44,512 nt of DNA from assembly GCA_017619375.1 (NCBI GenBank), contig JAFZSL010000037.1, positions 1 through 44,512 of the forward strand, read 5' to 3'. The position numbers and the translations under genes were made by a program. The DNA is from Prevotella sp. (lineage in GTDB: Bacteria; Bacteroidota; Bacteroidia; Bacteroidales; Bacteroidaceae). This document shows positions 24,235 through 43,035 of the stretch, piece after piece. The notes under the pieces were generated by a model. The model saw only the letters and a list, made by a program, of their open reading frames with translations, did not search any database and was not told the DNA's origin. Each line of letters begins with the position of its first letter. Positions within the stretch are counted from its first letter, which is position 1.

Positions 24235-24281
24235 CAAAGGTATGGCTTTTTTCCCATTCAACAAACTTTTATATACATATA
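24235..24281 (-). promoter_or_regulatory. Promoter of the DIP1984 gene with upstream TATAC-type box
   Basis: On the minus strand: the box TATATGTATA (24281-24272), then TTTG (24265-24262), 19 bases, and TACCTTTG (24242-24235). From the first base of the box to the first base of the -7 element is 39 bases, the same as at the AAA+, NADAR, 31.4-kb and SprT promoters. This is the only member with a proper -33 element. The leader to the start codon is about 118 bases. Confidence 0.7.
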
Positions 24282-24463
24282 ACAAAAAACAAATGATGAT
24301 TTGCCCTTTTTCTCATATGACTATACAATACCGATGATCAAGCCGAATAGACACGCATTCCTCTATCGAATATACATTTCGCAATCAGTGCCTACCCATA
24401 TATGGATGTTCAAGTGATGGTAAAAGGACCTGATTTTGACTTACTTCATAATTTTTTTTCAGA

Positions 24464-24499
24464 TACGCAAAAACAAAGCATGGTTCTGTTTTACTTTTG
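24464..24499 (+). promoter_or_regulatory. Promoter with TACGCA-type operator, no gene directly downstream
   Basis: TACGCA (24464-24469) and an imperfect second half AGCATG seven bases later lie ahead of TACTTTTG (24492-24499); first base to first base is 28, as in the 32.3-kb and 44.2-kb promoters. The bases around it (CAGATACGCAAAAA, TTTTGCAT) are also shared with the 32.3-kb copy. The next credible start codon is 900 bases downstream (25405), so the promoter may have lost its gene or drive a long leader or RNA. Confidence 0.6.
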
Positions 24500-24749
24500 C
24501 ATCCAGAAAGATATAAAATGGTCTTTGAATGAGAAAAAATAGGGAGTGACGTTGATGAGACTTACTTTACGTGTTAAACCGTGTATCTTCGATTCAATTC
24601 CGACCATGGGAAGCAATTCCACGTAGCTCAGTTGACCAGAGTATCGTCATATTTATATTATAAATAAGGTGACTGCCTTTCCCAGAAAAAAAGTTCTTTC
24701 CTTTAACAATCATTAAGGATAAAAATTCTTTATTCTCAAATATTTTTTC

Positions 24750-25020
24750 TATTTTCGCGTTCGCAAAATTCAAGAGGGTGTGTCTTGCAGGCTACAGACA
24801 CCTCTTCAACTCAAAAACACAACCGTCCAATAATGAACAATCGACACACGAAGTCCGAGAGGCAAAACACCCCTACAACCAAAAACACAACCTTCCAATA
24901 ACGAACAATCGACACACGAAGCCATAAGGCAAATGAAAGACAGGTCCTACCGACCTGATGAACCAATCACCCCTAAGAGCAGGGGCACGCTCATTAGCGT
25001 TCTTTGTTTTATTGTCACAC
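24750..25020 (+). ncRNA. Candidate structured RNA
   Basis: A -7-like TATTTTCG at 24750-24757 is followed by a run of structures: a bulged stem (AAGAGGGTGTGTCT with AGACACCTCTT), two 55-base repeats at a 68-base distance, CAGGTC/GACCTG (about 24941-24957), CCCCT/AGGGG (about 24970-24986) and ACGCT/AGCGT (about 24988-25002) followed by TCTTTGTTTT. The last could be a terminator. This is a proposal from sequence inspection only; it could equally be the leader of the 25405 gene. Confidence 0.3.
24813..24935 (+). repeat. Direct repeat, two copies of about 55 bp
   Basis: The words AAAAACACAACC, TCCAATAA, GAACAATCGACACACGAAG and GGCAAA appear in the same order at 24813-24867 and again at 24881-24933, 68 bases later, with only a few differences. 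They lie in the gene-free stretch and are not coding. Confidence 0.85.
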
Positions 25021-25025
25021 ATCCC

Positions 25026-25137
25026 GAGTCAGCCTTCGAGCTGCACCAACCGAGCTACATAATCACTACGGTGGGAAAATGATGCGAATTGACTGGTTGG
25101 CCATCCAATCAACAAGTTAATTAAATTTGATTATGAA
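25026..25137. repeat. Interspersed intergenic repeat, copy 1
   Basis: About 67 bases (25026-25092) match 28906-28970 at roughly 80 percent by eye, sharing AGCCTT, ACCAACCGA, ACATAATC, ACGGT and GGAAAA in order. Both copies are then followed by an AAGTTAATT/CAGTTAATT AT-rich tail and a GATTAT word. The reverse strand reads like a tRNA D-arm (TAGCTCGGTTGGTGCAGCTC) in this copy, but no T-arm follows. Confidence 0.7.
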
Positions 25138-25404
25138 AAATCATTACATTCACTTACGTTATGAGGGGCCGGTCCGCGCCCAAGCACCGAACTTTTCTGT
25201 ACTTCACCTATTCATAGGTAGCAGAACTACTCTTATTTGTCGTTGGAATCCAACGCTGTCCTTTCTTTCAAGACAACTCGTCACTTTTCGAAGTTTTCTA
25301 TTTCAGCCTTCAAAGAGGGTTTCTCTCCCTCGGAGGTTTTCTCTTGCGCTCCATTGCGGAGTTGTCTGCTTACTAAAATTACTGTTTCACTTAAAATTGA
25401 ATGC

Positions 25405-26124
25405 ATGACTATTGAGACAAACGGACACCGCATTAACATTGACATTGACCCATTACTTTTTCTTGTCTTCCTTGGAGACAAGGTGGATAAGAAGATAGTT
25501 TCCGACATAGCCACGCCCAACTTCTCTGTCGTGGTGAGACCGTCGAGGAAAGCCAAATTCACGGCCAAGGTGGGGGATTACGATATTGTCGTCCGCAAGG
25601 ATGACGGTGAGGAGATAACCCTCGACATGCCGCACCGTGGGGCGAAAATGATGTATGTGCTTACCCTTTTTTGTCAGAAGGCTGTGGGTGGTCTGCCCAA
25701 CAAGTTCTTCACTAACGAGAAGGCTGCAGAGGTCATTAAGTCACTTTACGACAAACTCTACCGCTCTGGCGGTGGGCAATGGGTGAGGAGCAGCGCAAGC
25801 AACAAACACAACCTTTCCACGTTCCGCACACATGCGAATAATGCAGTAGTGGAGAACAAGGCATTGGACAACATGATGCGCTATTGGTGCGGTTTCGAGG
25901 ACGAGCGTCGGACTGTTGGCAAGAGACAGTTGCAATTGAGGAGAATACGCATTTCCAATGACCGCATTCTTTTCGAGGACGCAGCCAACAACAGAGTCTC
26001 TTTTGAAGAGTTGATTCGTCAACTTCCACCATTGGAAGACGTTTTCGGTTTAAGAAGCAAGACAATGGAACGTATTAATATGTTGCGTTCGCTAAAGTCA
26101 AAGGACACATTCACACTTGGCTGA
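25405..26124 (+). CDS. Hypothetical protein, 239 aa
   Basis: I do not recognise this family. The N-terminal 80 residues look like a small beta-rich domain (INIDIDPLLFLVFLGDKV, FTAKVGDYDIVVRKDDGEEI). The middle (about 85-165) is helical and basic, with HRGAKMMYVLTLFCQKA and a Ser/Asn-rich segment (RSSASNKHNLSTFRTHANNA), reminiscent of a helical nucleic-acid-binding region, which is only inference. A basic RRIRIS strand and a helical C-terminus follow. There is no signal peptide or TM helix. I choose the ATG at 25405; the frame is open back to 25237, but that extension looks like noise. A strong terminator follows, so it is transcribed separately from the AAA+ gene. Confidence 0.7.
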   Translation: MTIETNGHRINIDIDPLLFLVFLGDKVDKKIVSDIATPNFSVVVRPSRKAKFTAKVGDYDIVVRKDDGEEITLDMPHRGAKMMYVLTLFCQKAVGGLPNKFFTNEKAAEVIKSLYDKLYRSGGGQWVRSSASNKHNLSTFRTHANNAVVENKALDNMMRYWCGFEDERRTVGKRQLQLRRIRISNDRILFEDAANNRVSFEELIRQLPPLEDVFGLRSKTMERINMLRSLKSKDTFTLG

Positions 26125-26132
26125 GACATGCA

Positions 26133-26156
26133 AAAGGGAGGGCACTCCCTCCCTTT
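26133..26156 (+). terminator. Terminator after the 239-aa gene
   Basis: AAAGGGAGGG (26133-26142) and CCCTCCCTTT (26147-26156) form a perfect 10-bp stem with a CACT loop, nine bases after the stop codon. The T-tract is the end of the stem itself followed by ACTT. Confidence 0.75.
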
Positions 26157-26162
26157 ACTTCA

Positions 26163-26209
26163 TATACCTATATGAAAACTCTCCAATTCATTCTTATTTG
26201 TTAATTTCG
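26163..26209 (+). promoter_or_regulatory. Promoter of the AAA+ gene with TATAC-type box
   Basis: TATACCTATA (26163-26172, within the wider palindrome CATATA-CC-TATATG) lies 39 bases before TAATTTCG (26202-26209), a -7 variant. There is no TTTG or TTGG 19 bases ahead of the -7 box, so an activator bound at the box may replace the -33 element. The 50 bases from the box onward are close to those at the NADAR promoter (29173-29219). Confidence 0.65.
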
Positions 26210-26283
26210 CAGATGAAATGAAAGATTGGATCATGGAGCGTCATATTGACACAAAAACACTATAACATAAATTTTCAGATTTG

Positions 26284-27996
26284 ATGAGCATAGTTAAAAA
26301 CGCAAAAAAAGGCAAGACTTTGGGCAAAAAGGAAGTTGTCAAAACAGAACAACAAGAAAAGATAACCATGCTCTCGGCCATCGAGACCATCTTGTTGATA
26401 GCCGAGGACTCGTCGTTTACATTAGACATATTCGAAGAACTCAAAGAGTACCTTAAGTACATCTCCGACCTCCAAGGTATTTCCATCTCTCAAGCCCTTC
26501 TGTTTTCCATCCTCGTCGAGGGCTGTTCAGACGGCAACACGGTCACAGTCTCCAACCTCGCAAGGTTCTTGGACTGTCCAAGGGTGCGCGTGATGAAATA
26601 TCATGAGGAGATTGAAGACATGGTGAAACGCAAGTTGCTGAGGAAAGTGAAAAACAGATTCAGTGATGAAAAGGTGGGCTATGTGGTGCCAGTGGACGTG
26701 ATGGACGCCATCAAGAACGATAGTCGGTTTGTACCGAAGTCACTGAAGGCCAAAGACGGCGTGCAGTTCTTCCACATGGTCTTCGACTTGACGCATCGGC
26801 GCAAGGAGGAAGAGATAGACACTGAACAGCTCTTGGAGGAGTTTCAGCAGCTTCTCGAGGCGAACGAAGAGTTGAGGTATGTCAAGCAGCTTGAGAGGCT
26901 CAAGCTCCCTATCAACAGCCAAGTGATGGTGACGCAAATGGCACGTCATCTTGTCCTTGACCAAGACAACTATGTAACCATTGATAGTTTTGGGTTCCTC
27001 TTCGATGACAAACACGAGGCTTACTGTGAATTACGTCATCTGGAGCAAGGCAACCATATCCTCATCAAAAAGAACCTTGTGGAATATGACGGAGAGGAGG
27101 GCTTTTTCAACAAGGCGAAATACAAGTTGACAAACACCGCGAGAGAGAAACTGTTGAAGGGTTTCTCCCTACCCAAGAAAACGGAAACGAATGTGCAAGC
27201 CATACAAGCCGATAGCATCATACCCAAAAGCTTGTTCTTCAACGAGGACATAGGACGGCAGATGGAGGATTTGGCGGAGTTGTTGTCTGTGGAGAAGTTG
27301 ACAGCCATACAAACTCGTCTGAAAGAGCACGGCCGTAGGACTGGATTCGCATGTCTCTTCTACGGTGCCCCTGGCACGGGAAAGACAGAGAGCGTGTTGC
27401 AGATTGCACGAAGGACTGGACGTGACATCATACTGGTGGACATATCGGAAATCAAGAGCAAATGGGTGGGTGAGAGCGAACAGAACATCAAGGCGGTGTT
27501 CGATAACTATTGCGCCATGTGCAAGAATAGTGACATCATGCCGATTTTGCTCTTCAATGAGGCGGACGCGATACTTGGCACACGCAAGGGACAAGCCATA
27601 CATGCTGTGGACAAGATGGAGAATGCCATACAGAACATCGTCCTTCAGGAACTGGAGACGCTCGACGGCATCTTGATTGCAACTACCAATTTGGAGCAAA
27701 ACTTGGATAGCGCTTTTGAGCGTCGTTTTATCTACAAGGTGCGTTTCGAGCGTCCGAACGTTGAGCAAAGAAGGAGGATTTGGTTGTCGATGATGCCTTC
27801 GCTCAGCGAGGAAATGGCACTACAATTGGCTGCCACGTTCGACCTCAGCGGTGGTCAGATAGAGAACATCGTGCGCAAATGCGACGTGGAGTCCATCCTC
27901 TATGGCGAGTCCGCTGTTGACGCAGAAAAAATACAGCGCTTCTGCCAAGAGGAAAAGATTCAAAAGGCAAGCACGGTACACGTGGGGTTTGTGTAG
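26284..27996 (+). CDS. AAA+ ATPase with N-terminal winged-helix-like region
   Basis: The 570-aa cytoplasmic protein has an N-terminal part (about 1-310) rich in helices, including a winged-helix-like segment (VSNLARFLDCPRVRVMKYHE, about 85-105), and a C-terminal AAA+ module of the classical (FtsH/Cdc48-like) clade: Walker A YGAPGTGKTE (Lys 367), pore-like SKWVGESEQNI, Walker B LLFNEADAI (Asn 425 in place of the usual Asp, Glu 426 kept), sensor-1 IATTNLEQNLD, arginine finger FERRF, and sensor-2 SGGQIENIV. Such proteins remodel or unfold protein targets; here the partner is unknown. The ATG at 26284 is preferred over a TTG at 26281. It is controlled by the shared box promoter and followed by two hairpins. 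Confidence 0.88.
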   Translation: MSIVKNAKKGKTLGKKEVVKTEQQEKITMLSAIETILLIAEDSSFTLDIFEELKEYLKYISDLQGISISQALLFSILVEGCSDGNTVTVSNLARFLDCPRVRVMKYHEEIEDMVKRKLLRKVKNRFSDEKVGYVVPVDVMDAIKNDSRFVPKSLKAKDGVQFFHMVFDLTHRRKEEEIDTEQLLEEFQQLLEANEELRYVKQLERLKLPINSQVMVTQMARHLVLDQDNYVTIDSFGFLFDDKHEAYCELRHLEQGNHILIKKNLVEYDGEEGFFNKAKYKLTNTAREKLLKGFSLPKKTETNVQAIQADSIIPKSLFFNEDIGRQMEDLAELLSVEKLTAIQTRLKEHGRRTGFACLFYGAPGTGKTESVLQIARRTGRDIILVDISEIKSKWVGESEQNIKAVFDNYCAMCKNSDIMPILLFNEADAILGTRKGQAIHAVDKMENAIQNIVLQELETLDGILIATTNLEQNLDSAFERRFIYKVRFERPNVEQRRRIWLSMMPSLSEEMALQLAATFDLSGGQIENIVRKCDVESILYGESAVDAEKIQRFCQEEKIQKASTVHVGFV

Positions 27997-27998
27997 AA

Positions 27999-28042
27999 AG
28001 GGGCACAATGCCCCTCCAACAAACCCTCCGCAGACAGGGTTT
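27999..28042 (+). terminator. Tandem hairpins after the AAA+ gene
   Basis: AGGGGCA/TGCCCCT (27999-28005 and 28009-28015, loop CAA) is followed by AAACCCT/AGGGTTT (28021-28027 and 28035-28041) ending in a T-rich tract. The second works as the terminator. Confidence 0.65.
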
Positions 28043-28073
28043 TGCTCGGTAGACAAATTAAACCATTGATTTT

Positions 28074-28104
28074 TTTGATTTGCTCTTGTTTTGCACTATC
28101 TTTG
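28074..28104 (+). promoter_or_regulatory. Promoter of the alpha/beta hydrolase gene
   Basis: TTTG (28074-28077), exactly 19 bases, TATCTTTG (28097-28104): a textbook Bacteroidota promoter. The leader of about 130 bases contains GACCT (28121-28125), AGGTC (28132-28136), GTCCT (28134-28138) and AGGAC (28145-28149), which can form two mutually exclusive short hairpins. Confidence 0.8.
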
Positions 28105-28241
28105 TAATGGCTTTCATAAAGACCTAATGACAGGTCCTAAAAAGAGGACAGCCCCATTCTTGTTGCGTGGGCAGTTGAGAGCCTACCAGATATATATGGA
28201 GTTTATGAATACTTAACTAATAAACAAAATTAGAAACAACG

Positions 28242-28775
28242 ATGAAATTGAGTTATGTGATTTTCTCTCATGGAAAAGAGAGCGGCCCAATGGGGGCTAA
28301 GATTCAACGTCTCATGGCAGAAGGCGAACGTTTGGGATTGAAAACAATTTCTGTTGACTATCGGAATTGTGCCACGGCAAGTGAGCGTGTTGCTCTCCTT
28401 GGCGAGACCCTTAAAGAATTGAACATCCCACCGCAACAGCTGATTCTTGTAGGTTCCAGCATGGGTGGGTATGTATCAACTGTGGTGGCAAACGGTTTAC
28501 CTATTGCTGGGCTGTTCCTGATGGCTCCGGCATTATGGATGCTTGCAGAGGAATATACTGTTCAGTCATATCAGCCGCAGACATCCAAGGTCGAAATCAT
28601 ACATGGCATCAACGACGAAGTTGTTCCCTGTGAGAACAGCATCCGATTTACAAGAGGGCAGAAAGGTACGATTCTTCATCTCGTGCCCGATGACCATCGG
28701 CTGAAGGCATCGCTCGATTTCCTCGCATGTCAATTCAGGCGGTTTATAGATGAACTATCTGAAAATAACCAATAG
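28242..28775 (+). CDS. Small alpha/beta hydrolase (YqiA/UPF0227-like esterase)
   Basis: The 177-aa protein is a compact alpha/beta hydrolase without a cap domain. It has the oxyanion-type FSHGKES near the start (residues 8-14), the nucleophile elbow GSSMGG (Ser 73), the acid in GINDEVVP (Asp about 126) and the His in DDHRL (about 153), so the full catalytic triad is present. There is no signal peptide. Small hydrolases of this kind act on esters or thioesters, but the natural substrate is not deducible. It is transcribed alone from its own consensus promoter and does not carry the shared TATAC-type box of its neighbours. Confidence 0.88.
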   Translation: MKLSYVIFSHGKESGPMGAKIQRLMAEGERLGLKTISVDYRNCATASERVALLGETLKELNIPPQQLILVGSSMGGYVSTVVANGLPIAGLFLMAPALWMLAEEYTVQSYQPQTSKVEIIHGINDEVVPCENSIRFTRGQKGTILHLVPDDHRLKASLDFLACQFRRFIDELSENNQ

Positions 28776-28905
28776 ATAATTCCCTTAAGACCGATAATGC
28801 TTTATCCTCATATCATTGATTTCCTTCGCGTCACCAAATTGAAAAGTCGTCTTGGACGGCTGAGAAGAATCCACAAAAGGACTTTTCAAATCGCTTTAAT
28901 ATCAA

Positions 28906-28995
28906 GAGACAGCCTTGAGTAGACCAACCGAACACATAATCGCCACGGTAGGAAAACGATACGAGTTAACAGTAGATTTTAAACAGTTAATTTAA
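28906..28995. repeat. Interspersed intergenic repeat, copy 2
   Basis: Matches 25026-25137 (see there). Each copy lies a few hundred bases upstream of an accessory gene, on the same strand in relation to it. Confidence 0.7.
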
Positions 28996-29172
28996 TTGAG
29001 ATTATAAACATCTTTTCGAATTTTTACAAATGTCTCGTGTGGGGATTCCAATAATCTCCACACGATATTCTTGTATCTACTGTCAAGTTCATGTCTCCTG
29101 GCTGTTACACATCTTGTCTTGTCGGATACCAATGGACAGGGCGTCGTCATAGCCTCAATCCCTCTCTACTTT

Positions 29173-29219
29173 TATACCTATATAAAATCCCTCTAATTCA
29201 TTCTTATTTAGTAACTTCG
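29173..29219 (+). promoter_or_regulatory. Promoter of the NADAR gene with TATAC-type box
   Basis: TATACCTATA (29173-29182) is 39 bases ahead of TAACTTCG (29212-29219). There is no -33 element. The sequence between (CTAATTCATTCTTATTTAGT) closely matches the AAA+ promoter, which has CCAATTCATTCTTATTTGTT in the same place. Confidence 0.65.
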
Positions 29220-29278
29220 CTGTCCGAAAACAGGATAGCAAATCAGATTCAAAAACATTTAATCATACCACACCACAC

Positions 29279-30010
29279 ATGCGAAACATCATCTTAGGTC
29301 AGGTAGAAACCTACACCGCCACCCCAAACGTCTGGTCTTTCAAGAAAGTAGAGGATATCGTCAACGGCTTCAACCTTCGTCTTACCAATATGGCAGGAGG
29401 CTTCCCCTTCGAATTCAACGACACGACATGGAAAGATAGTGAAAGGCTGTATCTCTGCGGTGAGTACTCCAACGACACCGACCGACATAGGCAAATCCAA
29501 CAAGCACTACTCGACTATACCAGCGGATATGCCGCCAAACGCTTCGGCAAGGCTCGCTATCGCAAGGAGGTGAGGGAGGACTTCCCTTCATTTCGACTCC
29601 AATGGATGCTCTTCTGCGTGTGGCAGAAATGCAAGGGAAACAGCGACTTCCGAGAGTTGCTTCTGAGCATTCCGGAGTACGTGACGTTGGTTGAAAACAC
29701 TACCACCGACAAGTGGGAGAGTGCCACCATCTGGGGATGCAAGAACCCAGAGTTGCACAACCAAAGGGTGAACCTTGAGAAGGCACTCACCACACAGCAT
29801 CAGGGGATGAACCGCAAGGAGTTGGATAACCTAATCAACATCGAGACCAACAAGGTCTGCGAGGTGGGGGAGTGGAAAGGTCAGAACAACATCGGCAAGA
29901 TACTCATGATCTGCCGTGACTGCATCGCCGAAGGGATGGAACCAACCATCGACTACGAGTTGCTTCGTAGCGCCAACATCCATCTCCTCGGACAAAAACT
30001 AACATTCTGA
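29279..30010 (+). CDS. NADAR-domain protein (YbiA / DUF1768 family)
   Basis: The 243-aa cytoplasmic protein fits the NADAR (NAD- and ADP-ribose-associated) superfamily, which includes riboflavin-intermediate N-glycosidase YbiA and enzymes that remove ADP-ribose from guanine in DarT-NADAR systems. Visible features are NMAGGFPFEFND near residues 37-48, helices with Phe, Trp and Lys in the middle (QWMLFCVWQKCKG), and the C-terminal signature ATIWGCKNPEL ... GQNNIGKILMICRD, in which WG and G-N-G-LM-R are the family's characteristic residues. A DarT-type partner is not next to it. It is driven by the shared box promoter and followed by a MetK-like fragment. Family assignment is fairly firm; the exact reaction is inference. 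Confidence 0.75.
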   Translation: MRNIILGQVETYTATPNVWSFKKVEDIVNGFNLRLTNMAGGFPFEFNDTTWKDSERLYLCGEYSNDTDRHRQIQQALLDYTSGYAAKRFGKARYRKEVREDFPSFRLQWMLFCVWQKCKGNSDFRELLLSIPEYVTLVENTTTDKWESATIWGCKNPELHNQRVNLEKALTTQHQGMNRKELDNLINIETNKVCEVGEWKGQNNIGKILMICRDCIAEGMEPTIDYELLRSANIHLLGQKLTF

Positions 30011-30057
30011 CAAAAGAGTTTTCAGCATTAATTGGTAATCAAAAAAACATCATAACA

Positions 30058-30249
30058 ATGAAAAGAACAGTAATTTGTGAATTTGTGGGTCTTGCCCATC
30101 CCGACAAGGTGGCAGGCGGCAGCATCTCCGACTCTGGGGATAAAAACTTCGCTCAAGAAATCATGGTTTCCACCACATTTCTTGAGCGAAGTGTTGATTT
30201 GTGTTTTTTAGATGAAAAGATAAAAGTCTGGTTGGAAAAATATTGTTGA
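30058..30249 (+). pseudogene. S-adenosylmethionine synthetase-like N-terminal fragment
   Basis: The 63-codon frame starts 47 bases after the NADAR gene with MKRTVICEFVGLAHPDKVAG followed by GSISDSG. GxxHPDKVAxxISD is the ATP-binding start of MetK (SEGHPDKxADQISD). The similarity ends after about 27 residues; then a perfect 16-bp inverted repeat (30146-30192) and a T-tract lie inside the frame, and the remaining residues do not resemble MetK. It is best read as the truncated start of a MetK-like gene once linked to the NADAR gene, though a short functional peptide is not excluded. Confidence 0.4.
30146..30215 (+). terminator. Terminator-like 16-bp stem-loop inside the MetK-like fragment
   Basis: ACTTCGCTCAAGAAAT (30146-30161) and ATTTCTTGAGCGAAGT (30177-30192) are exact reverse complements with a 15-base loop, followed by GTTGATTTGTGTTTTTT. 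It probably ends the NADAR transcript. Confidence 0.7.
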
Positions 30250-30258
30250 ATATGTTGT

Positions 30259-31026
30259 TTAGAACTTATAGCGCACACCTGCCAAGGCGATACCCTGCTC
30301 ACCAACACCGAGTTCGGCAAAACCACGGAGTTTTTGAGAACCTACCTCCACACCGATTAACGAGGCTTGGAAATTGAAGCGAACGCTGTTGTCACTGTGA
30401 ACTTCTTTCTTGTCGCCATTGACGTCCTGCTTTTGCTTTTCAGTGACATACGTGGCACCGACAGCCACCTTCGAATACAAACCGAAATTCTTCTTACGGA
30501 GCCAGTCAAACTTGGCAGCAGGCATCACAGTGATGAAATACTTGCTCGAAGTGCCAACTTTTTCCTTGGTTCTAGTACCATTATTCCAATCGATGTTGCA
30601 GTACATGTCGCTGGTGGTTCCGCTGAAAGCGCCTATGGCACCGATGCTGATTACCGGATTCAGGTGATGGAAATATTCAACGGAGATGGCTGGTATGTCT
30701 TTTTCATTCTCGTACGATGTGGAACCAACGAGAGTGCCGCCAGTTATAACACTTGAAACCAAGGCTTCGCCCATCACGGAGAAAACTGAGGAGAAAGCGT
30801 CGAAAATCTGACTGTTAGAACCAACACCGATGGTGACGGCCACTTCGTCCTTAGTCTTGTAGTACTCATCGTTTTGGGCTTGTGCGTTCAAACTGGCACC
30901 GTAGAGGAGGACAGCGATTGCCATCGACTTCAAAAGAGTAGATGTTTTGACATTGTTCACTTTGTTTGCCTTTGCTGTTGTTTCGAAGTTGGCAACCGAC
31001 TTCAGGGAGAAATGTTTTGTTTTCAT
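30259..31026 (-). CDS. Outer-membrane beta-barrel protein
   Basis: The 255-aa protein has an unusually long N-terminal region before the hydrophobic stretch (residues 1-30 basic and polar, then about 31-50, KSMAIAVLLYGASLNAQAQ), which would be cleaved after AQA-Q. The mature part alternates polar and apolar residues in strands, with aromatic ends and a C-terminal strand GIALAGVRYKF ending in Phe, the BAM recognition signal. It fits a small 8- to 10-stranded OMP barrel domain. A shorter start at the Met before AIAV would lack a proper n-region. Its ligand or role is unknown. It has its own promoter (31090-31097) and is convergent with the NADAR transcript. Confidence 0.82.
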   Translation of the reverse strand: MKTKHFSLKSVANFETTAKANKVNNVKTSTLLKSMAIAVLLYGASLNAQAQNDEYYKTKDEVAVTIGVGSNSQIFDAFSSVFSVMGEALVSSVITGGTLVGSTSYENEKDIPAISVEYFHHLNPVISIGAIGAFSGTTSDMYCNIDWNNGTRTKEKVGTSSKYFITVMPAAKFDWLRKKNFGLYSKVAVGATYVTEKQKQDVNGDKKEVHSDNSVRFNFQASLIGVEVGSQKLRGFAELGVGEQGIALAGVRYKF

Positions 31027-31089
31027 TGCTTTTGTTTTTATTTATTATTTTTTTTGTTGTTTCTTTGTCGTTTTCTTGTTTTGTTGATG

Positions 31090-31097
31090 CAAAGGTA
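31090..31097 (-). promoter_or_regulatory. -7 element of the outer-membrane protein gene
   Basis: Minus-strand TACCTTTG (31097-31090), followed by GCATC, gives an A-rich leader of about 60 bases before the start codon. No good -33 match is seen. Confidence 0.55.
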
Positions 31098-31321
31098 GTG
31101 TTGTTTTATGGACAGGCTAAGTTTTTTCGTGAATATTCACCCAAAAGTGTACGACAGACACGTAAAATTGCGACAAATGAGAAGAGGTGCCTTCATATCT
31201 GTCGCAAAAGAGGTTTTGTTTCAGAATAATTGAGAAATCAACGGATGTCTTTCTATTGTTTCTTTTTATTGAGCAGTTCCTAATCTACGCCTTTCAGGCT
31301 CCCATGACGTTGGTCAATAGT

Positions 31322-31368
31322 TATACCTATATAAATGCTTTCCAAATTTACTTTTTACTGTATCTTTG
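31322..31368 (+). promoter_or_regulatory. Promoter of the 43-aa/194-aa pair with TATAC-type box
   Basis: TATACCTATA (31322-31331) lies 39 bases before TATCTTTG (31361-31368). The start codon of the 43-aa frame is 45 bases downstream. Outside the box and -7 element this promoter differs from those at 26.2 and 29.2 kb, so the conserved spacing is not just common descent of the whole region. Confidence 0.7.
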
Positions 31369-31412
31369 TGTCACAATTCAAACCAACACGTATCAAAAAT
31401 AACACACAACCT

Positions 31413-31544
31413 ATGAGCAATATCATTCGATTAAAGAAAAGCGTATTCGATCAGCTGCATCCAGACCTCACTGTAGAACAGTGGATCCTGACTACGATTT
31501 TTTCTGCAAAAAATTCAGACAACCATAAAAAAAACAAAGAATGA
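31413..31544 (+). CDS. Small hypothetical protein, 43 aa
   Basis: MSNIIRLKKSVFDQLHPDLT starts a 43-codon frame directly after the box promoter. The N-terminal two thirds look like an amphipathic helical peptide (EQWILTTIF), and the tail is Lys/Asn-rich. Its stop codon overlaps the next start as ATGA, which suggests that its translation feeds the 194-aa protein. I do not recognise a family; it could be a true small protein or a leader peptide. Confidence 0.5.
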   Translation: MSNIIRLKKSVFDQLHPDLTVEQWILTTIFSAKNSDNHKKNKE

Positions 31545-32125
31545 TGAACGAACCAGAACTGGAATATTTTCTTGGACACAGTGATTGGAATGGATATACA
31601 ATCGTTGAGCACCATGCCCATAGACCAGTGCATCAAGGCTTTTGTGTCTTCGAAGTGTGTGACTACTGGATTTCCGACGGTGATGGGTCACCAGCGAAAT
31701 ATGACGAAACGTATGTGGAAATAGAAGAAGACGTACGCAAGAAGGCTATGAGGATGTTCCGTGAAGTGGAGAGGAAACTCCTCGTCATCGGAAACGAAGG
31801 TTCCACCTCTATTGAAAGGAATGTCGAAGTGGGCGACTACCTCTATTCCCATGGAGAATTCTTCCACGTCGTCAGCCTGAACCAAGGCCACGAACTGTTC
31901 CAGAGATTCTATTGTGACCAGTACGACCTTGACTTTGACCCTGACCCATTCACACTGGACGACCTCGACACCACATTGGAGGAACTGATGGATGACTGCT
32001 TCCTCATTTCCAAGGAGATCTACGAGAAAGCTCTCCAAATAGCCAAAGATGGTATTGCACAAATTACCGCATACCTCAGTGATCAGTATATCCGACATGC
32101 TGGAATACAATCATCAGATCTTTGA
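31541..32125 (+). CDS. Hypothetical protein, 194 aa
   Basis: The protein is acidic and rich in aromatic residues, with no signal peptide, TM segment or known motif. Its first part (YFLGHSDWNGYTIVEHH, GFCVFEVCDYWISDGDG) is probably mixed alpha/beta. The middle has a Lys/Arg-rich helix (VRKKAMRMFREVERKLL) and the last third is strongly acidic (DLDFDPDPFTLDDLDTTLEELMDDC). The start codon overlaps the 43-aa frame's stop. A second ATG three bases later is equally possible. It is part of the putative box regulon; function unknown. Confidence 0.7.
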   Translation: MMNEPELEYFLGHSDWNGYTIVEHHAHRPVHQGFCVFEVCDYWISDGDGSPAKYDETYVEIEEDVRKKAMRMFREVERKLLVIGNEGSTSIERNVEVGDYLYSHGEFFHVVSLNQGHELFQRFYCDQYDLDFDPDPFTLDDLDTTLEELMDDCFLISKEIYEKALQIAKDGIAQITAYLSDQYIRHAGIQSSDL

Positions 32126-33941: not shown

Positions 33942-33945
33942 AAAC

Positions 33946-35189: not shown

Positions 35190-35204
35190 GTCAACAATTA
35201 GACA

Positions 35205-35238
35205 TTTTGTACTTTTCCAAACTACAAATCGTACAAAA
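35205..35238. promoter_or_regulatory. Probable AraC-type operator
   Basis: TTTTGTAC (35205-35212) and GTACAAAA (35231-35238) are exact inverted repeats with 18 bases between, so the centres are about 26 bases apart. They lie between the divergent AraC and exporter genes. Confidence 0.6.
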
Positions 35239-35287
35239 AGCACATTATTCAATCATTTTGGATAGGCTTTCGGTAAGATTTTAGCCG

Positions 35288-35295
35288 TAATTTTG
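35288..35295 (+). promoter_or_regulatory. Probable -7 element of the ABC exporter operon
   Basis: TAATTTTG followed by CCATC lies 26 bases before the start codon of the TolC-like gene. The -33 region is poor, which fits dependence on the AraC regulator. Confidence 0.5.
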
Positions 35296-35321
35296 CCATC
35301 GAGAAACCAACCTTCCAAAAA

Positions 35322-36593: not shown

Positions 36594-36604
36594 TACCATA
36601 ATAT

Positions 36605-37579
36605 ATGAAAAAGACCCTACTGATAGCAAGTCTGACCATCGTCATAAGCGCTTGCAGCAAGAAAGAGAAAGAATATGACGCCACCGGCACCTTCGAGGCC
36701 ACTGAGGTGACCCTCTCGGCAGAGGCCAGCGGAGAACTAACCCTGCTCAATGCCAACGAGGGACAAGAGGTGGCTCGAGGTTCGGTGATAGGCTATGTGA
36801 ACAAGAAGCAACTCGAACTGAAAAAACTGCAACTCGAAGCCTCGTTGCTCCAACTTGATGCCACACGCGAGCAACTGGCAGCCACACACTCGTCGAACGA
36901 CAGCCGCCAGCTCGACCTCGAAAAGCAACTGGCCTCCATACGTCAGCAAATAGCCAATGCCCAACGTGAAAAGCAGCGCTTCAGCGAACTCTACAAAGAC
37001 GGGGCGGTGGCACGAAAACAAGTTGATGACATCGTTTACCAAATCAGCGTGCTGGAGAAACAACTGGCAGCCACCGAAGATCAGATACGGAGCAACAACG
37101 CTGCCTTAGACGACCAAAACCGCGGCATCGGCGCACAGATGGAAGGCGTGGCCCGTCAGGCCGAAGGTATAAAGGCCCAGATAGCCCAGATAGACGACCA
37201 GATAGCCAATGCCGATGTGGTGTCGCCCATCATGGGCATCATTATAGAGAAATATGTGGAGAGCGGCGAATATGTCACTACGGGTAAACCCCTGCTGAAA
37301 CTCGCCGACACACAGAATATGTTCATCCGCGCATATGTCACCTCGGCACAACTCCAGCACATAAAGGTGGGGCAAAAGGCTACTGTGCTAGCCGACTATG
37401 GCGACGGTCAGAAGCACACCTACGAAGGCACCGTGACATGGATAAGCAACCGCTCTGAATTCACCCCGAAGACCATCCTCACTGATGATGAGCGTGCCGA
37501 CCTGGTTTATGCCGTGAAAGTGGTCTTGAAAAATGACGGGTTCGTGAAGATAGGCATGTATGGCGAGGTGAAGTTCTAA
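36605..37579 (+). CDS. HlyD/YbhG-type membrane fusion lipoprotein
   Basis: The 324-aa adaptor has a lipoprotein signal (MKKTLLIASLTIVISAC, Cys 17), then the first half of the barrel-sandwich (YDATGTFEATEVTLSAEASG, about 23-42), a long coiled-coil hairpin (about 65-200) full of Gln, Glu and Lys heptads, the second half (ADVVSPIMGIIIEKYVESGE), and a beta-barrel domain to the end. It connects the ABC permeases to the TolC-like channel. Nine bases separate it from the ATPase gene. The order TolC, adaptor, double ATPase, two permeases matches the YbhGFSR type. Confidence 0.9.
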   Translation: MKKTLLIASLTIVISACSKKEKEYDATGTFEATEVTLSAEASGELTLLNANEGQEVARGSVIGYVNKKQLELKKLQLEASLLQLDATREQLAATHSSNDSRQLDLEKQLASIRQQIANAQREKQRFSELYKDGAVARKQVDDIVYQISVLEKQLAATEDQIRSNNAALDDQNRGIGAQMEGVARQAEGIKAQIAQIDDQIANADVVSPIMGIIIEKYVESGEYVTTGKPLLKLADTQNMFIRAYVTSAQLQHIKVGQKATVLADYGDGQKHTYEGTVTWISNRSEFTPKTILTDDERADLVYAVKVVLKNDGFVKIGMYGEVKF

Positions 37580-37587
37580 CAAATCAC

Positions 37588-39054
37588 ATGGCGATGAACG
37601 CGATAGAAGTCAACCACATTTCCAAATCCTACGGCAAGGTGAAGGCACTCGACGACGTGTCGTTCTCCGTTGGTCGGGGCGAGGTGTTCGGACTCATCGG
37701 ACCCGATGGTGCCGGGAAGACATCAATGTTCCGAATCCTTTGCACCCTGCTCCTGCCTGAGAGCGGCACAGCCAAGGTAGATGGTTTCGACGTGGTGAGA
37801 CAGATGGACGACATACGTCGCCGCGTGGGCTATATGCCGGGAAGATTCTCTCTCTATCAGGATCTCACAGTGAGAGAGAACCTCGACTTCTTCGCCACCC
37901 TCTTTGGCACCACCGTAGAAGAGGGCTATGACAGCATCAAGGCTATATACTCGCAGATCGAACGCTTCAACGAGCGCAAGGCCGGTGCCCTGTCGGGCGG
38001 CATGAAACAGAAACTGGCCCTCTCGTGCGCACTTGTCCACCAACCCTCTGTGCTCTTCCTCGACGAGCCGACCACAGGAGTGGATCCCGTGAGCCGCAAG
38101 GAGTTTTGGGAGATGCTCTCCATGCTGAAGGAGCGGGATATCACCATCGTGGCCTCCACCCCATATCTGGAGGAGGTGCGCTGTTGCGAAAGGGTGGCTT
38201 TCCTCAACCACGGAAGGGTGCGCGGCATCGACCGCCCCGAGGTGATTCTCGACCAGTTTGCCGACATCTTCAACCCTCCTGGAATCACCCATGACAAGTC
38301 CATGGGGTGCACCGAAGAAAACGTCATTGAAGTGGAACATCTTGTGAAAGCGTTCGGCAGCTTCCATGCCGTCGATGATGTCAGTTTCACCGTGAGAAAA
38401 GGCGAGATATTCGGGTTCCTAGGAGCCAACGGGGCTGGAAAGACCACCGCCATGCACATGCTCACCGGACTGAACCAGCCCACGAGCGGCACGGGCAGAG
38501 TGGCAGGATTCGACATCCGCACCGAGTATGAACAAGTGAAGAAGCACATCGGATATATGTCACAGAAATTCTCGCTTTACGAAGACCTGACGGTTGCTGA
38601 GAATATCCGCCTATTTGCCGGCATCTATGGAATGAAAGACCATGACATATCGCGCAAGACCGACGACCTGTTGCAGCGGTTGCATTTTGTCGACCACAAA
38701 AACGACCTCGTGGGGTCGTTACCTTTGGGATGGAAACAGAAACTTGCTTTCTCCGTATCCATCTTCCACGACCCCGCCATCGTCTTCCTCGACGAGCCGA
38801 CAGGCGGCGTGGATCCCGCCACCCGACGCCAATTTTGGGAACTCATTTACGATGCCGCCGCCAGGGGCATCACCGTGTTTGTAACCACCCACTATATGGA
38901 CGAGGCCGAATACTGCGACCGCATCAGCATCATGGTAGACGGAAAAATAAGTGCTATGGGCACGCCCGACGACTTGAAACGCCGATACAACCAACCCGAC
39001 ATGGACCATGTGTTCACCTATCTTGCACGACAAGCCACACGAAGCAATGATTAG
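37588..39054 (+). CDS. ABC exporter ATPase, two fused nucleotide-binding domains (YbhF type)
   Basis: The 488-aa protein contains two ATP-binding cassettes in one chain. NBD1 (about 5-230) has Walker A GPDGAGKT, signature LSGGMKQKLAL and Walker B VLFLDEPTTGVDP. NBD2 (about 248-485) has Walker A GANGAGKTT, the degenerate signature SLPLGWKQKLAF and Walker B IVFLDEPTGGVDP followed by the switch His in VTTHYMDEAE. In NBD1 the switch position reads ASTPYLEEV, with Thr-Pro instead of the His, so NBD1 may be catalytically weaker. The same asymmetry is known for YbhF-like proteins. It supplies energy to the two permeases. A shorter start at the third codon is possible. Confidence 0.93.
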   Translation: MAMNAIEVNHISKSYGKVKALDDVSFSVGRGEVFGLIGPDGAGKTSMFRILCTLLLPESGTAKVDGFDVVRQMDDIRRRVGYMPGRFSLYQDLTVRENLDFFATLFGTTVEEGYDSIKAIYSQIERFNERKAGALSGGMKQKLALSCALVHQPSVLFLDEPTTGVDPVSRKEFWEMLSMLKERDITIVASTPYLEEVRCCERVAFLNHGRVRGIDRPEVILDQFADIFNPPGITHDKSMGCTEENVIEVEHLVKAFGSFHAVDDVSFTVRKGEIFGFLGANGAGKTTAMHMLTGLNQPTSGTGRVAGFDIRTEYEQVKKHIGYMSQKFSLYEDLTVAENIRLFAGIYGMKDHDISRKTDDLLQRLHFVDHKNDLVGSLPLGWKQKLAFSVSIFHDPAIVFLDEPTGGVDPATRRQFWELIYDAAARGITVFVTTHYMDEAEYCDRISIMVDGKISAMGTPDDLKRRYNQPDMDHVFTYLARQATRSND

Positions 39055-39057
39055 CGT

Positions 39058-40116
39058 ATGAAACAGTTCATCTCTTTCATCATCAAGGAAGGCCGCCACA
39101 TCTTGCGTGACAAACGCACGATGTTGATTCTCTTCGGCATGCCTGTCGTGTTGATGCTTCTCTTCGGCTTCGCCATCACCACCGATGTTAAAAATGTGCG
39201 CACCATCGTCATCACTTCGTCGGCCGACCACCAGACAAAACTGGCCATCAACCGTCTGGCCGCCTCGGAATATTTCACCATCACCGCCACCGTGGGCACA
39301 CCAAAAGAAGCTGAACAACTCATTCGCAACCAAAAGGCCGACATGGCCATTGTTTTCGGCCAAGACTTCGCCTCAAAAAAGAGCGGTTTGCAACTCATCG
39401 TAGATGGTGCCGACCCCAATATGGCCCAGCAATGGGTAAACTACGCCACGGGAGTACTCACCAACATGACAGGAGCGCTGGTGAACACAAAGATGCTCTA
39501 TAACCCGCAGATGAAGTCGGCCTATAACTTCGTGCCAGCCATCATGGGTATGCTATTGATGCTCGTTTGCGCGATGATGACTTCCATCTCCATCGTCCGC
39601 GAGAAAGAAAGGGGCACGATGGAGGTGCTACTTGTCTCGCCCGTAAGACCCCTGGTGATCATCATCGCCAAGGTAGTGCCATATCTGGTGCTCGCCTTTG
39701 TCATCCTCACCACCATCCTGCTCATGAGTCATTATGTGCTGGGCGTGCCCCTGCATGGCTCCATCGCGGCCATTTACTTTGTGAGCACCATCTATATACT
39801 GCTCGCACTCTCGCTCGGACTGCTCATATCCAACATCGCAAACAGCCAACTGATGGCGCTGCTCCTCTCGGCTATGGTGCTGCTCATGCCAATTGTCATG
39901 CTTTCGGGAATGATGTTCCCCGTGGAGTCTATGCCTAGGATACTGCAGTGGATATCGCTCATCATCCCTCCCCGCTACTATATGGCCGCCATGCGCAAAC
40001 TCATGATAATGGGTGTGGGCATCGGCGAAGTGCTGCCCGAGGTGCTGGTCCTTACGGCTTTCGCCGTGGTGCTGCTTGCCGTATCGCTTATCAAGTTCAA
40101 CAAACGCTTGGAATAG
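39058..40116 (+). CDS. ABC-2 type permease (YbhS/YhhJ-like), first subunit
   Basis: The 352-aa inner-membrane protein follows the ABC-2 layout: an N-terminal TM helix (about 22-42), a large extracytoplasmic domain (about 45-165), then five helices (about 165-345). The helix LLLMLVCAMMTSISIVREKE is followed by GTMEVLLVSPVRP, the typical cytoplasmic motif (EREKGTxExL...P). It starts three bases after the ATPase gene and probably heterodimerises with the next permease. The substrate (drug, dye, lipid) is unknown. Confidence 0.9.
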   Translation: MKQFISFIIKEGRHILRDKRTMLILFGMPVVLMLLFGFAITTDVKNVRTIVITSSADHQTKLAINRLAASEYFTITATVGTPKEAEQLIRNQKADMAIVFGQDFASKKSGLQLIVDGADPNMAQQWVNYATGVLTNMTGALVNTKMLYNPQMKSAYNFVPAIMGMLLMLVCAMMTSISIVREKERGTMEVLLVSPVRPLVIIIAKVVPYLVLAFVILTTILLMSHYVLGVPLHGSIAAIYFVSTIYILLALSLGLLISNIANSQLMALLLSAMVLLMPIVMLSGMMFPVESMPRILQWISLIIPPRYYMAAMRKLMIMGVGIGEVLPEVLVLTAFAVVLLAVSLIKFNKRLE

Positions 40117-40119
40117 CCT

Positions 40120-41205
40120 ATGACCTTGAAATATCTCATCCAGAAAGAATTCCTGCAGATACGCAGAAATGCGTTCCTGCCCCGCCTCATCATCGTGTTT
40201 CCCATAATGATGATGTGCGTCATGCCATGGGTGATGAGCATGGAGGTGAAGAACGTGGTGGTGGATGTGGTGGACAACGACCGTTCCACTCTGTCGCAGC
40301 AACTTGTCCACCGCATTGAGGCCTCCCGCTATTTTATCTTCAATGGCCAGAAACCCACCTATCAGACAGCACTGAAAGAGATAGAGACGAGCAAGGCCGA
40401 CGTAGTGCTTGTCATCCCCCAACATTACGAACGCGATCATATACAAGGCCGCCAACCCCAGGTGTTCATAGCCGCCAATGCCGTGAACGGCACAAAAGGG
40501 GCCATGGGCAGCGCTTATCTCTCGCAGATTGTCACTGCCAACTTGGCGGGTGATGTGGCGGACATCCAGTCGGGCATCTCGACCTTGTTCCTATATAACA
40601 AGAACCTCAACTACAAGGTCTTTATGATTCCAGCACTCTTCGCCATCGTGATGATGCTGATGTGCGGCTTCCTGCCCACGCTCAACATCGTGGGCGAGAA
40701 AGAAGCGGGCACCGTCGAACAAATCAACGTCACGCCTGTGTCGAAGTGGGCGTTTATCCTGGCCAAACTCATTCCCTACTGGCTTATTGCCCTCTTCATC
40801 ATCACCATATGCCTCATCCTCTCATGGCTCATATACGGCATCACCTGTCAGGGACCGCTATGGCTCGTCTTCGTGCTTGCCATGTCACTGGCACTCTTTT
40901 GGAGTTCCTTCGGACTCATCATCTCCAACTATTCCGACACGATGCAGCAGGCCATCTTCGTTATGTGGTTCTTTGTGGTGTGTATGCTACTGCTCAGCGG
41001 CCTCTTCACCCCCACACGGTCGATGCCATCATGGGCATATGCCACGACTTACATCAATCCTATGCACTATTTTGTCGATGGAATCCGCACTGTGTTCGTA
41101 AGGGGCGGCGGACTGCAAAGCGTCCTCCATCAGGTGCTGGCCCTGTTGGGCATTTCCCTGGGCATGGGATTTTGTGCCGTGCAAAGTTACAAAAAGAACC
41201 ACTGA
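40120..41205 (+). CDS. ABC-2 type permease (YbhR-like), second subunit
   Basis: The 361-aa protein has the same layout as its neighbour (N-terminal TM, exported domain of about 140 residues, five C-terminal helices), with GEKEAGTVEQINVTPVSKW as the ABC-2 motif in the first cytoplasmic loop after the second helix. It begins three bases after the first permease and ends the operon. No terminator is seen in the 40 bases before the convergent LRR gene. Confidence 0.9.
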   Translation: MTLKYLIQKEFLQIRRNAFLPRLIIVFPIMMMCVMPWVMSMEVKNVVVDVVDNDRSTLSQQLVHRIEASRYFIFNGQKPTYQTALKEIETSKADVVLVIPQHYERDHIQGRQPQVFIAANAVNGTKGAMGSAYLSQIVTANLAGDVADIQSGISTLFLYNKNLNYKVFMIPALFAIVMMLMCGFLPTLNIVGEKEAGTVEQINVTPVSKWAFILAKLIPYWLIALFIITICLILSWLIYGITCQGPLWLVFVLAMSLALFWSSFGLIISNYSDTMQQAIFVMWFFVVCMLLLSGLFTPTRSMPSWAYATTYINPMHYFVDGIRTVFVRGGGLQSVLHQVLALLGISLGMGFCAVQSYKKNH

Positions 41206-41245
41206 CATGATATGTGGTTAGTTTATTCCTTCAAGGTGGGAGACT

Positions 41246-42463
41246 TCAGTCATTTATTGGATTTCTGGGCTGCAGCAGCGGCGACACCCTTTGATCGATG
41301 TTGAATCCATTAAAGACAGAGACCTCATATTGGCTGAATCCATATGAGAGGCGTTCTGGAACATGGATGGTACACTTGGAACGATCAATTCCATCAAAAC
41401 TCTTAGAATCAAAGAGATCTGGATGAGCGATAAAGGATATCTCCAGATTAATATCTGTCAAGGATACACATCCATCAAACACATTCATCAACAAAGAACG
41501 CAGGTTTGAGGGTAAATTGATTTGCTTCAAGTTTATACAATGAGCGAATGAGGCGGCTCCCAGATAAGTCAAAGAAGACGGAAGTTTCACTCTTTCGAGG
41601 GCATCACATCCTTCAAATGCTGACGCCTCGATGAAATCAATTCCTTCAGTAAATATAATTTCATGAAGGTTCTTGCAGTTTTTGAATGCACCACTGTTTA
41701 TTCCCTTTACTTGTTGTGGGACAACAAGCTTGACAATCTCTTGATTATTTGCAAATCGCCTGTCAACGTATTGCATATCTTTGCCAAGCACACAAATACC
41801 ATTGTAGATAGTGGTTTCATTGAATGGTCCCCATTCTGCAAAATCAGCACCCTCAGGAATATCATCATTTTTAAGAACCTTGCCTTCTGGCACCTTTACT
41901 ATGGTCTTTGAATCTTTTGTGAAAAGAATACCATTTGAAGAAGTATAAGTTTGGTTATCCTGATCAACTTCAAAACTTTCCAATACGTTACATCCTGAAA
42001 AAGCATTTCTTTTAATCGTATCCAAATATTTTGGAATAGCAATTCTTCTTAAAGATGTACAATCTGCAAAAGCCTTGACGCCAATAGAAAGAAGACCAGT
42101 TGGAAGAACAACGCTCTCTAATGATGAGCAACTCTCAAATGCATGGTCCTTGATTTCATCCAAATCTTCTGACAAACTAATACTTTGGAGAGACTCACAA
42201 CCATTAAAAGCATTGTTGCCTATGGAATGAACATTCTCCAGATTAATAGATTGCAAGGATGTGCAGCCTCTGAATACCGCGTCACCGATTTCCTTGACCG
42301 TTTCCGGAAGGTGCACTTCTTTCAATTGCTTACAATCCTTGAAGGCTCCTTCTCTTAGTTTTACAACACCTTCAGGAATCGTCACTTCAGTGAGATTCCT
42401 GTCTTTTACGTCAATAACAATTGTGCCTCGCTTACGCAGCACAAACAAATCTCTTTCACTCAT
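41246..42463 (-). CDS. BspA-type leucine-rich-repeat protein without a signal peptide
   Basis: The 405-aa protein is made of BspA/TpLRR (LRR_5) repeats of about 23 residues, of the form LKxVxLPxxVxxIGxxAFxxCxxL; I count about seven in residues 25-175 and four to five in 250-350, separated by a region without clear repeats (about 178-245). Most BspA proteins are exported, but this one starts MSERDLFVLRKRGTIVIDVK with no signal peptide or sorting domain, so it is probably cytoplasmic and binds a partner. It lies 31 bases downstream of the SprT-like protease gene on the same strand, so the two are likely one operon. Confidence 0.88.
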   Translation of the reverse strand: MSERDLFVLRKRGTIVIDVKDRNLTEVTIPEGVVKLREGAFKDCKQLKEVHLPETVKEIGDAVFRGCTSLQSINLENVHSIGNNAFNGCESLQSISLSEDLDEIKDHAFESCSSLESVVLPTGLLSIGVKAFADCTSLRRIAIPKYLDTIKRNAFSGCNVLESFEVDQDNQTYTSSNGILFTKDSKTIVKVPEGKVLKNDDIPEGADFAEWGPFNETTIYNGICVLGKDMQYVDRRFANNQEIVKLVVPQQVKGINSGAFKNCKNLHEIIFTEGIDFIEASAFEGCDALERVKLPSSLTYLGAASFAHCINLKQINLPSNLRSLLMNVFDGCVSLTDINLEISFIAHPDLFDSKSFDGIDRSKCTIHVPERLSYGFSQYEVSVFNGFNIDQRVSPLLQPRNPIND

Positions 42464-42494
42464 AAATGTTGTTTTAAAGTTTGAATTATTCGTA

Positions 42495-42926
42495 CTAACT
42501 CGCCAATTTTTGCCTCAAGTCCCTTATCCTCGACTCAAATCCCTTACAGTGGACAGAGTCGGGCAGTTTAAGATAATAATAGTCGTAATGGTGCATGAAC
42601 TCGTGAAGAAGGGTATTGATGAAGGTCCTGATGTCACAGGGAACCTTAAGGTGCCTGTCGTTCCAGAGGTCAATGTCCTTGTTGCAATATCGCCCCATCA
42701 TAGTACCCCCAACAGCAATGTCGTATGAAAGGCCGTACACATAGACTTTGCAGCGTGGAATCCCATATTTGTCGCAAAGGTAGTTGATGAGAATCTGCGA
42801 GGCTTTTGTTCTTGGTCCCACCTTGCTTCCGCTGTGGAGGAGGGCTTGGTACTCTTCATGTGAGAAGTCAGAATAATCGACAGTTGGAAACTTGTTGCTT
42901 TTCTTGATGTTCCTGATGCTTGCCAT
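42495..42926 (-). CDS. SprT-like zinc metalloprotease
   Basis: The protein has the zinc-binding motif LLHEFMHHYD (HExxH) about 35 residues from the end and a downstream His in VHCKGFESRI, matching the SprT family, in which the third ligand follows and an H-x-x-x-F-x-x-R helix ends the domain. SprT/Spartan proteases cut DNA-protein crosslinks; bacterial members are poorly known. The frame is open to 42968 (157 aa), but I prefer the ATG at 42926 (MASIRNIKKSNKF, 143 aa): the inferred -7 element GAACTTTG (42957-42950) lies inside the longer version, so a transcript from it could not encode it. Co-transcribed with the LRR gene; part of the box regulon. Confidence 0.8.
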   Translation of the reverse strand: MASIRNIKKSNKFPTVDYSDFSHEEYQALLHSGSKVGPRTKASQILINYLCDKYGIPRCKVYVYGLSYDIAVGGTMMGRYCNKDIDLWNDRHLKVPCDIRTFINTLLHEFMHHYDYYYLKLPDSVHCKGFESRIRDLRQKLAS

Positions 42927-42949
42927 ATGTTCGTTTTGGTTTTTCGTTG

Positions 42950-42996
42950 CAAAGTTCTTCATAATCATCCAATAAAGCCCCTTTTATATACGTATA
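42950..42996 (-). promoter_or_regulatory. Promoter of the SprT-LRR operon with TATAC-type box
   Basis: On the minus strand the palindrome TATACGTATA (42996-42987) starts 39 bases ahead of GAACTTTG (42957-42950), a -7 element with GA in place of TA. There is no -33 match. The same palindrome serves the divergent 308-aa gene. Confidence 0.55.
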
Positions 42997-43035
42997 ATAT
43001 GGCGGGTAATTTAATTTCTTTTATCTACTTTTGCC
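42987..43035 (+). promoter_or_regulatory. Promoter of the 308-aa gene with TATAC-type box
   Basis: TATACGTATA (42987-42996) is followed by TACTTTTG (43028-43035), 41 bases from first base to first base. This is two bases longer than at the other promoters. The start codon is 61 bases downstream. Confidence 0.6.

Follow-up and report, generated by a model that had tools for sequence, protein, structure and literature searches.

Activators of class II promoters usually bind at sites centred at -41.5, and PhoB sites are direct repeats. Here we analyze a contig of 44,512 bp from Prevotella sp. (JAFZSL010000037.1 of assembly GCA_017619375.1, positions 1 to 44,512; hereafter the window), in which a 10-base palindromic box, TATACNTATA, precedes six promoters of unlike accessory genes, and we consider with moderate confidence that, judging from the sequences compared, this box is an activator site, most likely for a protein with a domain termed X (X240) and its relatives, driving an accessory conflict regulon. 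The promoter consensus of the primary sigma factor consists of a -7 element, TAnnTTTG, and a TTTG near -33 (PMC7366714), the -7 element being placed at -12 to -5 (PMC9723704). In the open-access literature, the scope of our search, no description of the box or of the regulon was found. Below, L-numbers denote loci and G-numbers genomes, G000 being the genome of the window.

A palindromic box at a fixed distance from the -7 element

The window contains 6 oriented matches to TATACNTATA at 5 sites, as against 0.03 expected from dinucleotide shuffles, and at least 6 matches occurred in none of 100 shuffles; the positions proposed for the six boxes by an earlier, sequence-only reading were all recovered. 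The offset from the first base of the box to the start of the -7 octamer is 39 in all six promoters, with the first base of the -7 element left free here as well as in the 77-promoter profile, the first-gene clustering and the X-gene count described below. Five offsets of 39 had been read correctly, whereas the 41 given for the SprT-like gene (minus strand) has to be corrected: the octamer at 39, GAACTTTG, is a -7 element with G in place of the first T, the octamer at 41, ACTTTGCA, is not a -7 element, and the 41 is therefore a 39 with an imperfect -7 element. Variants of this type also precede the SprT-like genes of relatives (GACCTTTG in L080 and L083, AATCTTTG in L145). As had been noticed, five of the six promoters lack a good -33 element, TTTG near -33 being present only at the DIP1984 promoter. 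The NADAR and AAA promoters share a 48-base stretch of 85% identity. An Rfam scan of the window at gathering scores gave no matches.

In the window and its relatives, 86 promoters of this layout were collected, 77 of which are non-redundant. In their -7 element TAnnTTTG, selection accounts for A at -11, TT at -8/-7 and G at -5; the positions that were not selected show T at -12 (64 of 77), T at -6 (67 of 77), C at -4 (66 of 77), T at -52 (59 of 77) and an A-rich stretch from -41 to -36. The TTTG -33 element is absent from the profile (0.04–0.31 bit at -34 to -31). With the first T of the -7 element at -12, the box spans -51 to -42, with its centre at about -46.5. Its spacing is constant and it adjoins the -33 region on the upstream side, as in class II-like promoters. 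Its forms are TATA-SS-TATA and also TATA-CA/TG-TATA; a TATRAAA tail, considered as part of the box, was dropped because it is absent in most relatives.

The distinctive feature is this fixed spacing and not the frequency of the word. TATACNTATA is not enriched in the genome of the window (19 oriented hits vs. 44 for the reversed control pattern), and the box was rejected as a genome-wide enriched word, the reversed control being equally common or commoner in the genomes counted, except G096 (12 box sites vs. 8 control sites). Among 34 oriented boxes of G000, however, a strict TAnnTTnG, which was also required in the counts of X-chosen and X-negative genomes below, lies at offset 39 in 6 and at other offsets from 25 to 54 in 2, a result that favours the sequence-only reading over an equal frequency of the box at that spacing elsewhere. 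Five of these 6 promoters are on the 44.5-kb contig, and the sixth box, on another contig, precedes a GNAT gene (L006). Around AAA homologues (80 loci from GTDB records, which overlap the genomes sampled under G-numbers, e.g. L149 and L084), 62 distinct oriented boxes had a -7 element at 39 in 23 cases, at 40 in 3 and elsewhere in none. Offset 39 was found for 6 of 84 oriented boxes in four genomes selected by the X protein alone (G009, G096, G238 and G369; all their listed box sites were examined) and for 0 of 115 in six X-negative genomes, which hold 134 box sites; the 115 boxes examined (about 58 sites) include all 20 sites of G045, and those taken from G010 and G024 were CC-, CG- or GG-centred only. 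One of the 77 promoters (L320), with a poor -7 element (AAGTTTTG), comes from an X-negative genome and is a false positive.

By sequence, the box defines a real, lineage-restricted promoter class. The AAA loci, drawn from a 150-genome sample of the genus, have the box at 39 before the AAA gene or its operon in the four nearest to the window gene (66–48% identity), and 1 of 25 loci from genomes with a best AAA match of at most 42% (L044–L068) is boxed, namely L059 in G059, with the centre TG. Further AAA paralogues (~39% identity) in the box-bearing genomes G049 (twice), G080, G097 and G110 are boxed as well. NADAR orthologues with 79% and 75% identity have the box before NADAR or its operon; in that with 62% (L072), a single site has TAATTTTG at offset 38 on its own side and, in the opposite direction, CATCTTTG at offset 39; no box was found at more distant NADAR orthologues. 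Exact spacing, the absent -33 element and recurrence across many genomes support both the activator-site layout and the common regulon of unlike accessory genes that the sequence-only reading had put forward.

The candidate regulator and competing readings

A regulator co-occurring with the box had been called for, and a candidate was found in the X-domain protein. The X240 gene is situated directly upstream of the AAA box, which begins 39 bases past the last base of the gene, and relatives are present in many box-bearing loci. X240 matched no Pfam family up to E=1 and no PHROG, its longer open reading frame (ORF) form (25237-26124) had no PADLOC or NCBIfam match, no match to X was found on phages, plasmids or viral contigs, and the PDB gave nothing better than E 0.22; X looks like a previously undescribed protein resembling a DNA-binding regulator. 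It occurs in a short form of ~240 amino acids (aa) and a long form of 405–465 aa, with distant forms of 185 aa, beside a divergent sigma factor, and of ~760–805 aa. In the model of the long form, an N-terminal thioredoxin-like domain is followed by a helical middle, a poorly modelled linker and the X domain, whose best match, a weak one, is the winged helix of CadC.

The X profile matched 12 of 150 and 26 of 398 genomes of the genus, weak distant forms included, and the nine box genomes then known (G000, G049, G059, G069, G080, G087, G097, G110 and G134) were all among the 12; since six of the nine had supplied rows to the profile, this overlap is in part built in, and the matches in G097 and G134 are weak. 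G009 and G096, found through X, proved to have boxes; G238 and G369 have no 39-spaced box near X but have such boxes elsewhere in the genome, and G070, with a weak X match, has no box in its locus. Among the 80 AAA loci, the box is present in 8 of 8 with an X ORF (E < 1e-5) as against 9 of 72 without; the eight include L157, in which the AAA gene directly follows a very different X of 192 aa and TATACATATA lies 39 before TACCTTTA. None of 22 X genes has a box of its own; a boxed promoter lies directly after 11 of them, divergently and directly before 5, and in either position at 14 (A being additionally allowed as the last -7 base in this count), and a box is present within 2 kb of 16. One more strong X gene, the 23rd (L325), was omitted because it runs off its contig, which is 3.5 kb long and has no box. 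The boxed neighbours of X vary (AAA, NADAR, WG, SprT-like, sigma, the 185-aa/sigma operon and a 195-aa gene). Within 5 kb of boxes X was found in 19 of 27 genome groups, tied only with AAA, itself a boxed gene, a count that is biased because some groups were fetched owing to X or AAA. The window-type AAA protein is itself unlikely to be the regulator, since G009 and G096 are boxed yet contain only AAA matches of E ~1e-7 and 6e-8, the level of general AAA proteins.

An activator bound at the box would replace the missing -33 contact at otherwise ordinary primary-sigma promoters, and would switch on a scattered, mobile-looking set of conflict and repair genes. This activator would most likely be an X-domain protein in its short, long or distant form, which would recognize the box, act as an activator there and respond to a signal. 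It is rather doubtful that the regulon, although of activator type, is governed by a regulator encoded elsewhere, of the WYL, NrtR-like Nudix, LytTR or AraC type, with X as a fellow member of the islands, which span about 40 kb and contain many boxed operons (L084 and L085 in G097, L086 and L087 in G080). WYL genes do occur in L084, L087 and L120 and, shortened, at 44255 in the window, Nudix-like proteins in L079 and L082 (all by eye), and LytTR and AraC-family genes in the window. However, these four candidates were rejected for their poor linkage to boxes: in the same biased count, Nudix and AraC were found in 2 genome groups, WYL and LytTR fell outside the 32 families listed and hence in at most 2, and two WYL genes carry a dyad of their own, TACGCA-N7-TGCGTA.

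That a repressor uses the box as an operator upstream of the promoter is unlikely, for although a symmetric box can serve as an operator, the distance between a repressor site and the -7 element need not be exact, and loss of the -33 element across 77 promoters is not expected. Very unlikely is a direct reading of box and -7 element by an alternative sigma factor, be it the RpoD-like one of the islands, a small divergent one or one with region 2 only. RpoD-like sigma genes are boxed (6 promoters) and located in islands, and the 185-aa form of X shares an operon with a small sigma factor, but the gap of 29 bases between box and -7 element is about 10 above the TTTG-to--7 gap of Bacteroides, the -7 element is the primary-sigma consensus, and the box is symmetric. 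Moreover, in a survey covering the RpoD-like sigma factor of the islands, it was found (90–100% identity) in only G097, G110 and G080 of 16 genomes searched, and no match of at least 90% was obtained in the box-bearing G000, G049, G069 (84% complete), G134 (66% complete), G087 and G059. Direct sigma recognition was set aside on this geometry and absence, and activation through the X-domain protein remains the preferred reading.

The proposed regulon and other features of the window

First genes behind the boxes (the longest ORF within ~420 bases, a few of which may be wrong) were clustered by similarity, near-identical copies from related genomes being counted. Names were given by eye except for AAA, NADAR, DIP1984, the leucine-rich repeat and sigma region 2, that of GNAT resting on a RimI match below its cut-off. 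AAA ATPases and linked GNAT proteins together account for 22, followed by RpoD-like sigma factors (6), NADAR and SprT-like proteins (5 each), WG-repeat, 788-aa and PfkB-like proteins (4 each), second-type SprT-like and HAD-like proteins (3 each), and deoxyribosyltransferase-like and 161-aa proteins (2 each); singletons include Sir2-like, Ro60/TROVE-like, N-formylglutamate amidohydrolase-like and UvrD-like proteins and a 185-aa protein with a small sigma factor. The regulon exceeds what the sequence-only reading could see, both in size and in its stronger leaning to NAD/ADP-ribose, RNA repair, AAA and sigma genes. Peptidases, the unfolding of proteins, RNA repair and NAD/ADP-ribose would be its themes, which recalls responses to conflict or damage. 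It is conceivable, though we put it forward only tentatively, that rumen Prevotella have a movable response of the SOS kind, controlled by a new regulator family (a thioredoxin-like sensor with a CadC-like winged helix, and a short form lacking the sensor), in which attack on nucleic acids or NAD, e.g. by phage, jointly induces ADP-ribose/NAD enzymes, RNA ligase, Ro60, peptidases, AAA unfoldases and a spare sigma factor of the primary type. Box, candidate regulator and target list offer a single way into dozens of accessory genes of rumen Bacteroidales that lack an explanation, NADAR, AAA, RtcB/Ro60-like and extra primary-type sigma genes among them, and the system is carried by the named strains Xylanibacter ruminicola D31d, whose long form of X is encoded at L163:8389-9786, and Prevotella sp. 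tf2-5.

The extra full-length RpoD-like sigma factor, itself boxed, is encoded in islands at L084 13394-14266 (+) and L087 931-1866 (-) and in L163 and L329. Small sigma-like proteins with region 2 and an odd C terminus are encoded at L120 4772-5470 (-) and L122 1116-1805 (+) and in L082, and ORFs that seem to consist of region 2 alone, in one case preceded by a HAD-like part, at L125 7443-7823 (-), L121 10287-11075 (-) and L133 7167-7532 (+), these readings being partly by eye. In G009, a boxed ORF (L273 2197-2796, -) fuses an AAA-like start to a GNAT-like protein (by eye) and is apparently a deletion remnant. An X-domain gene fragment of 64 residues, interrupted by a stop (G000:C44:15173-15364, L232), lies ~5 kb away from the GNAT-gene box and is probably a decayed second copy.

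The features of the window are listed in Table 1. The BspA-type leucine-rich repeat gene probably belongs to the SprT-like operon. The 43-aa ORF is, from its sequence, possibly a shortened remnant of the 161-aa boxed protein of relatives (L142, L339), because its N terminus resembles the start of that protein by eye. The stretch upstream of X240 contains a 42-base direct repeat of 95% identity (24812-24853 and 24880-24921).

Table 1. Boxes, -7 elements and genes of the window
Feature	Position	Strand	Remarks
DIP1984 family gene, 153 aa	23655..24116	-	boxed; NF038048 4e-55, PF20935
-7 element of DIP1984 promoter	24235..24242	-	TACCTTTG, offset 39
Box of DIP1984 family gene	24272..24281	-	TATATGTATA (coding-strand reading)
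Candidate regulator X240, 239 aa	25405..26124	+	first of X-domain family; without own box
Box of AAA gene	26163..26172	+	TATACCTATA
-7 element of AAA promoter	26202..26209	+	TAATTTCG, offset 39
AAA ATPase gene, 570 aa	26284..27996	+	boxed, orthologues boxed too; PF00004 1.8e-21
Box of NADAR gene	29173..29182	+	TATACCTATA
-7 element of NADAR promoter	29212..29219	+	TAACTTCG, offset 39
NADAR gene, 243 aa	29279..30010	+	boxed; PF08719 7.9e-9, above its cut-off
Box of 43-aa/194-aa pair	31322..31331	+	TATACCTATA
-7 element of 43-aa/194-aa pair	31361..31368	+	TATCTTTG, offset 39
43-aa ORF	31413..31544	+	boxed
194-aa protein	31541..32125	+	boxed operon; no family match in library searches (Pfam, PADLOC, NCBIfam, PHROGs)
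BspA-type leucine-rich repeat gene	41246..42463	-	PF13306 6.4e-70
SprT-like gene, 143 aa from MASIRN	42495..42926	-	boxed; HEFMH motif (by eye); no curated family match (Pfam, NCBIfam)
-7 element of SprT-like gene	42950..42957	-	GAACTTTG, offset 39
Box common to two divergent promoters	42987..42996	.	TATACGTATA, perfect palindrome
-7 element of 308-aa gene	43026..43033	+	TACTTTTG, offset 39
308-aa protein	43097..44023	+	boxed; no family match in library searches (Pfam, PADLOC, NCBIfam, PHROGs)

Two further dyads were observed. At distant AAA genes no other palindrome was noticed at offset 39, and a TGCC-N7-GGCA dyad turned up at offset 26; among 184 distinct dyads of this type, it lies 26 bases before TAnnTTTG in 18 cases and at 27, 45 and 62 once each, in the upstream regions of L049, L061, L160, L162, L164, L178, L179 and L180, several of them before distant AAA homologues, and it probably marks another regulon. 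The dyad near WYL genes, TACGCA-N7-TGCGTA, is located at 44171-44189 in the window, where it is part of a 43-base repeat that recurs less exactly at 24460 and 32328, and at L120 11996-12014; the WYL-like ORF of the window (44255-44422), of 55 aa only, is by eye a shortened copy.

Comparison with described systems

Membership of X in the OmpR family (PF00486 or kin) is not supported by sequence, X240 having no Pfam match to E=1 and X an hhalign probability of 0.2% against 13 OmpR-family proteins of these genomes. The strands, three helices and terminal hairpin of the X domain may correspond to those of OmpR/PhoB and ToxR/CadC, and the box, like their sites, lies just upstream of the -33 region. 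X differs from OmpR/PhoB in having no receiver domain by library search, and from PhoB in that the box is a 10-base palindrome instead of direct repeats. The promoters are similar to class II activator-dependent promoters, as the box adjoins the -33 region at one exact distance and no -33 element is present, but the centre of the box is further upstream than usual and the sigma factor is the primary one of Bacteroidetes.

Two other likenesses concern the genes. In L120 (10859-14000), a WYL regulator, an RtcB-like ligase and a boxed Ro60/TROVE-like gene (names by eye) adjoin, reminiscent of RNA repair (Rtc) under RtcR or WYL regulators (PMC7790460, PMC4012209), with the difference that here a new box stands beside the usual -7 element. 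In L084, NADAR-like and ADP-ribosyltransferase-like genes (by eye) adjoin, as in the NADAR/DarT-NADAR systems (PMC11543638, PMC11125620), whereas NADAR is here a member of a many-gene regulon.

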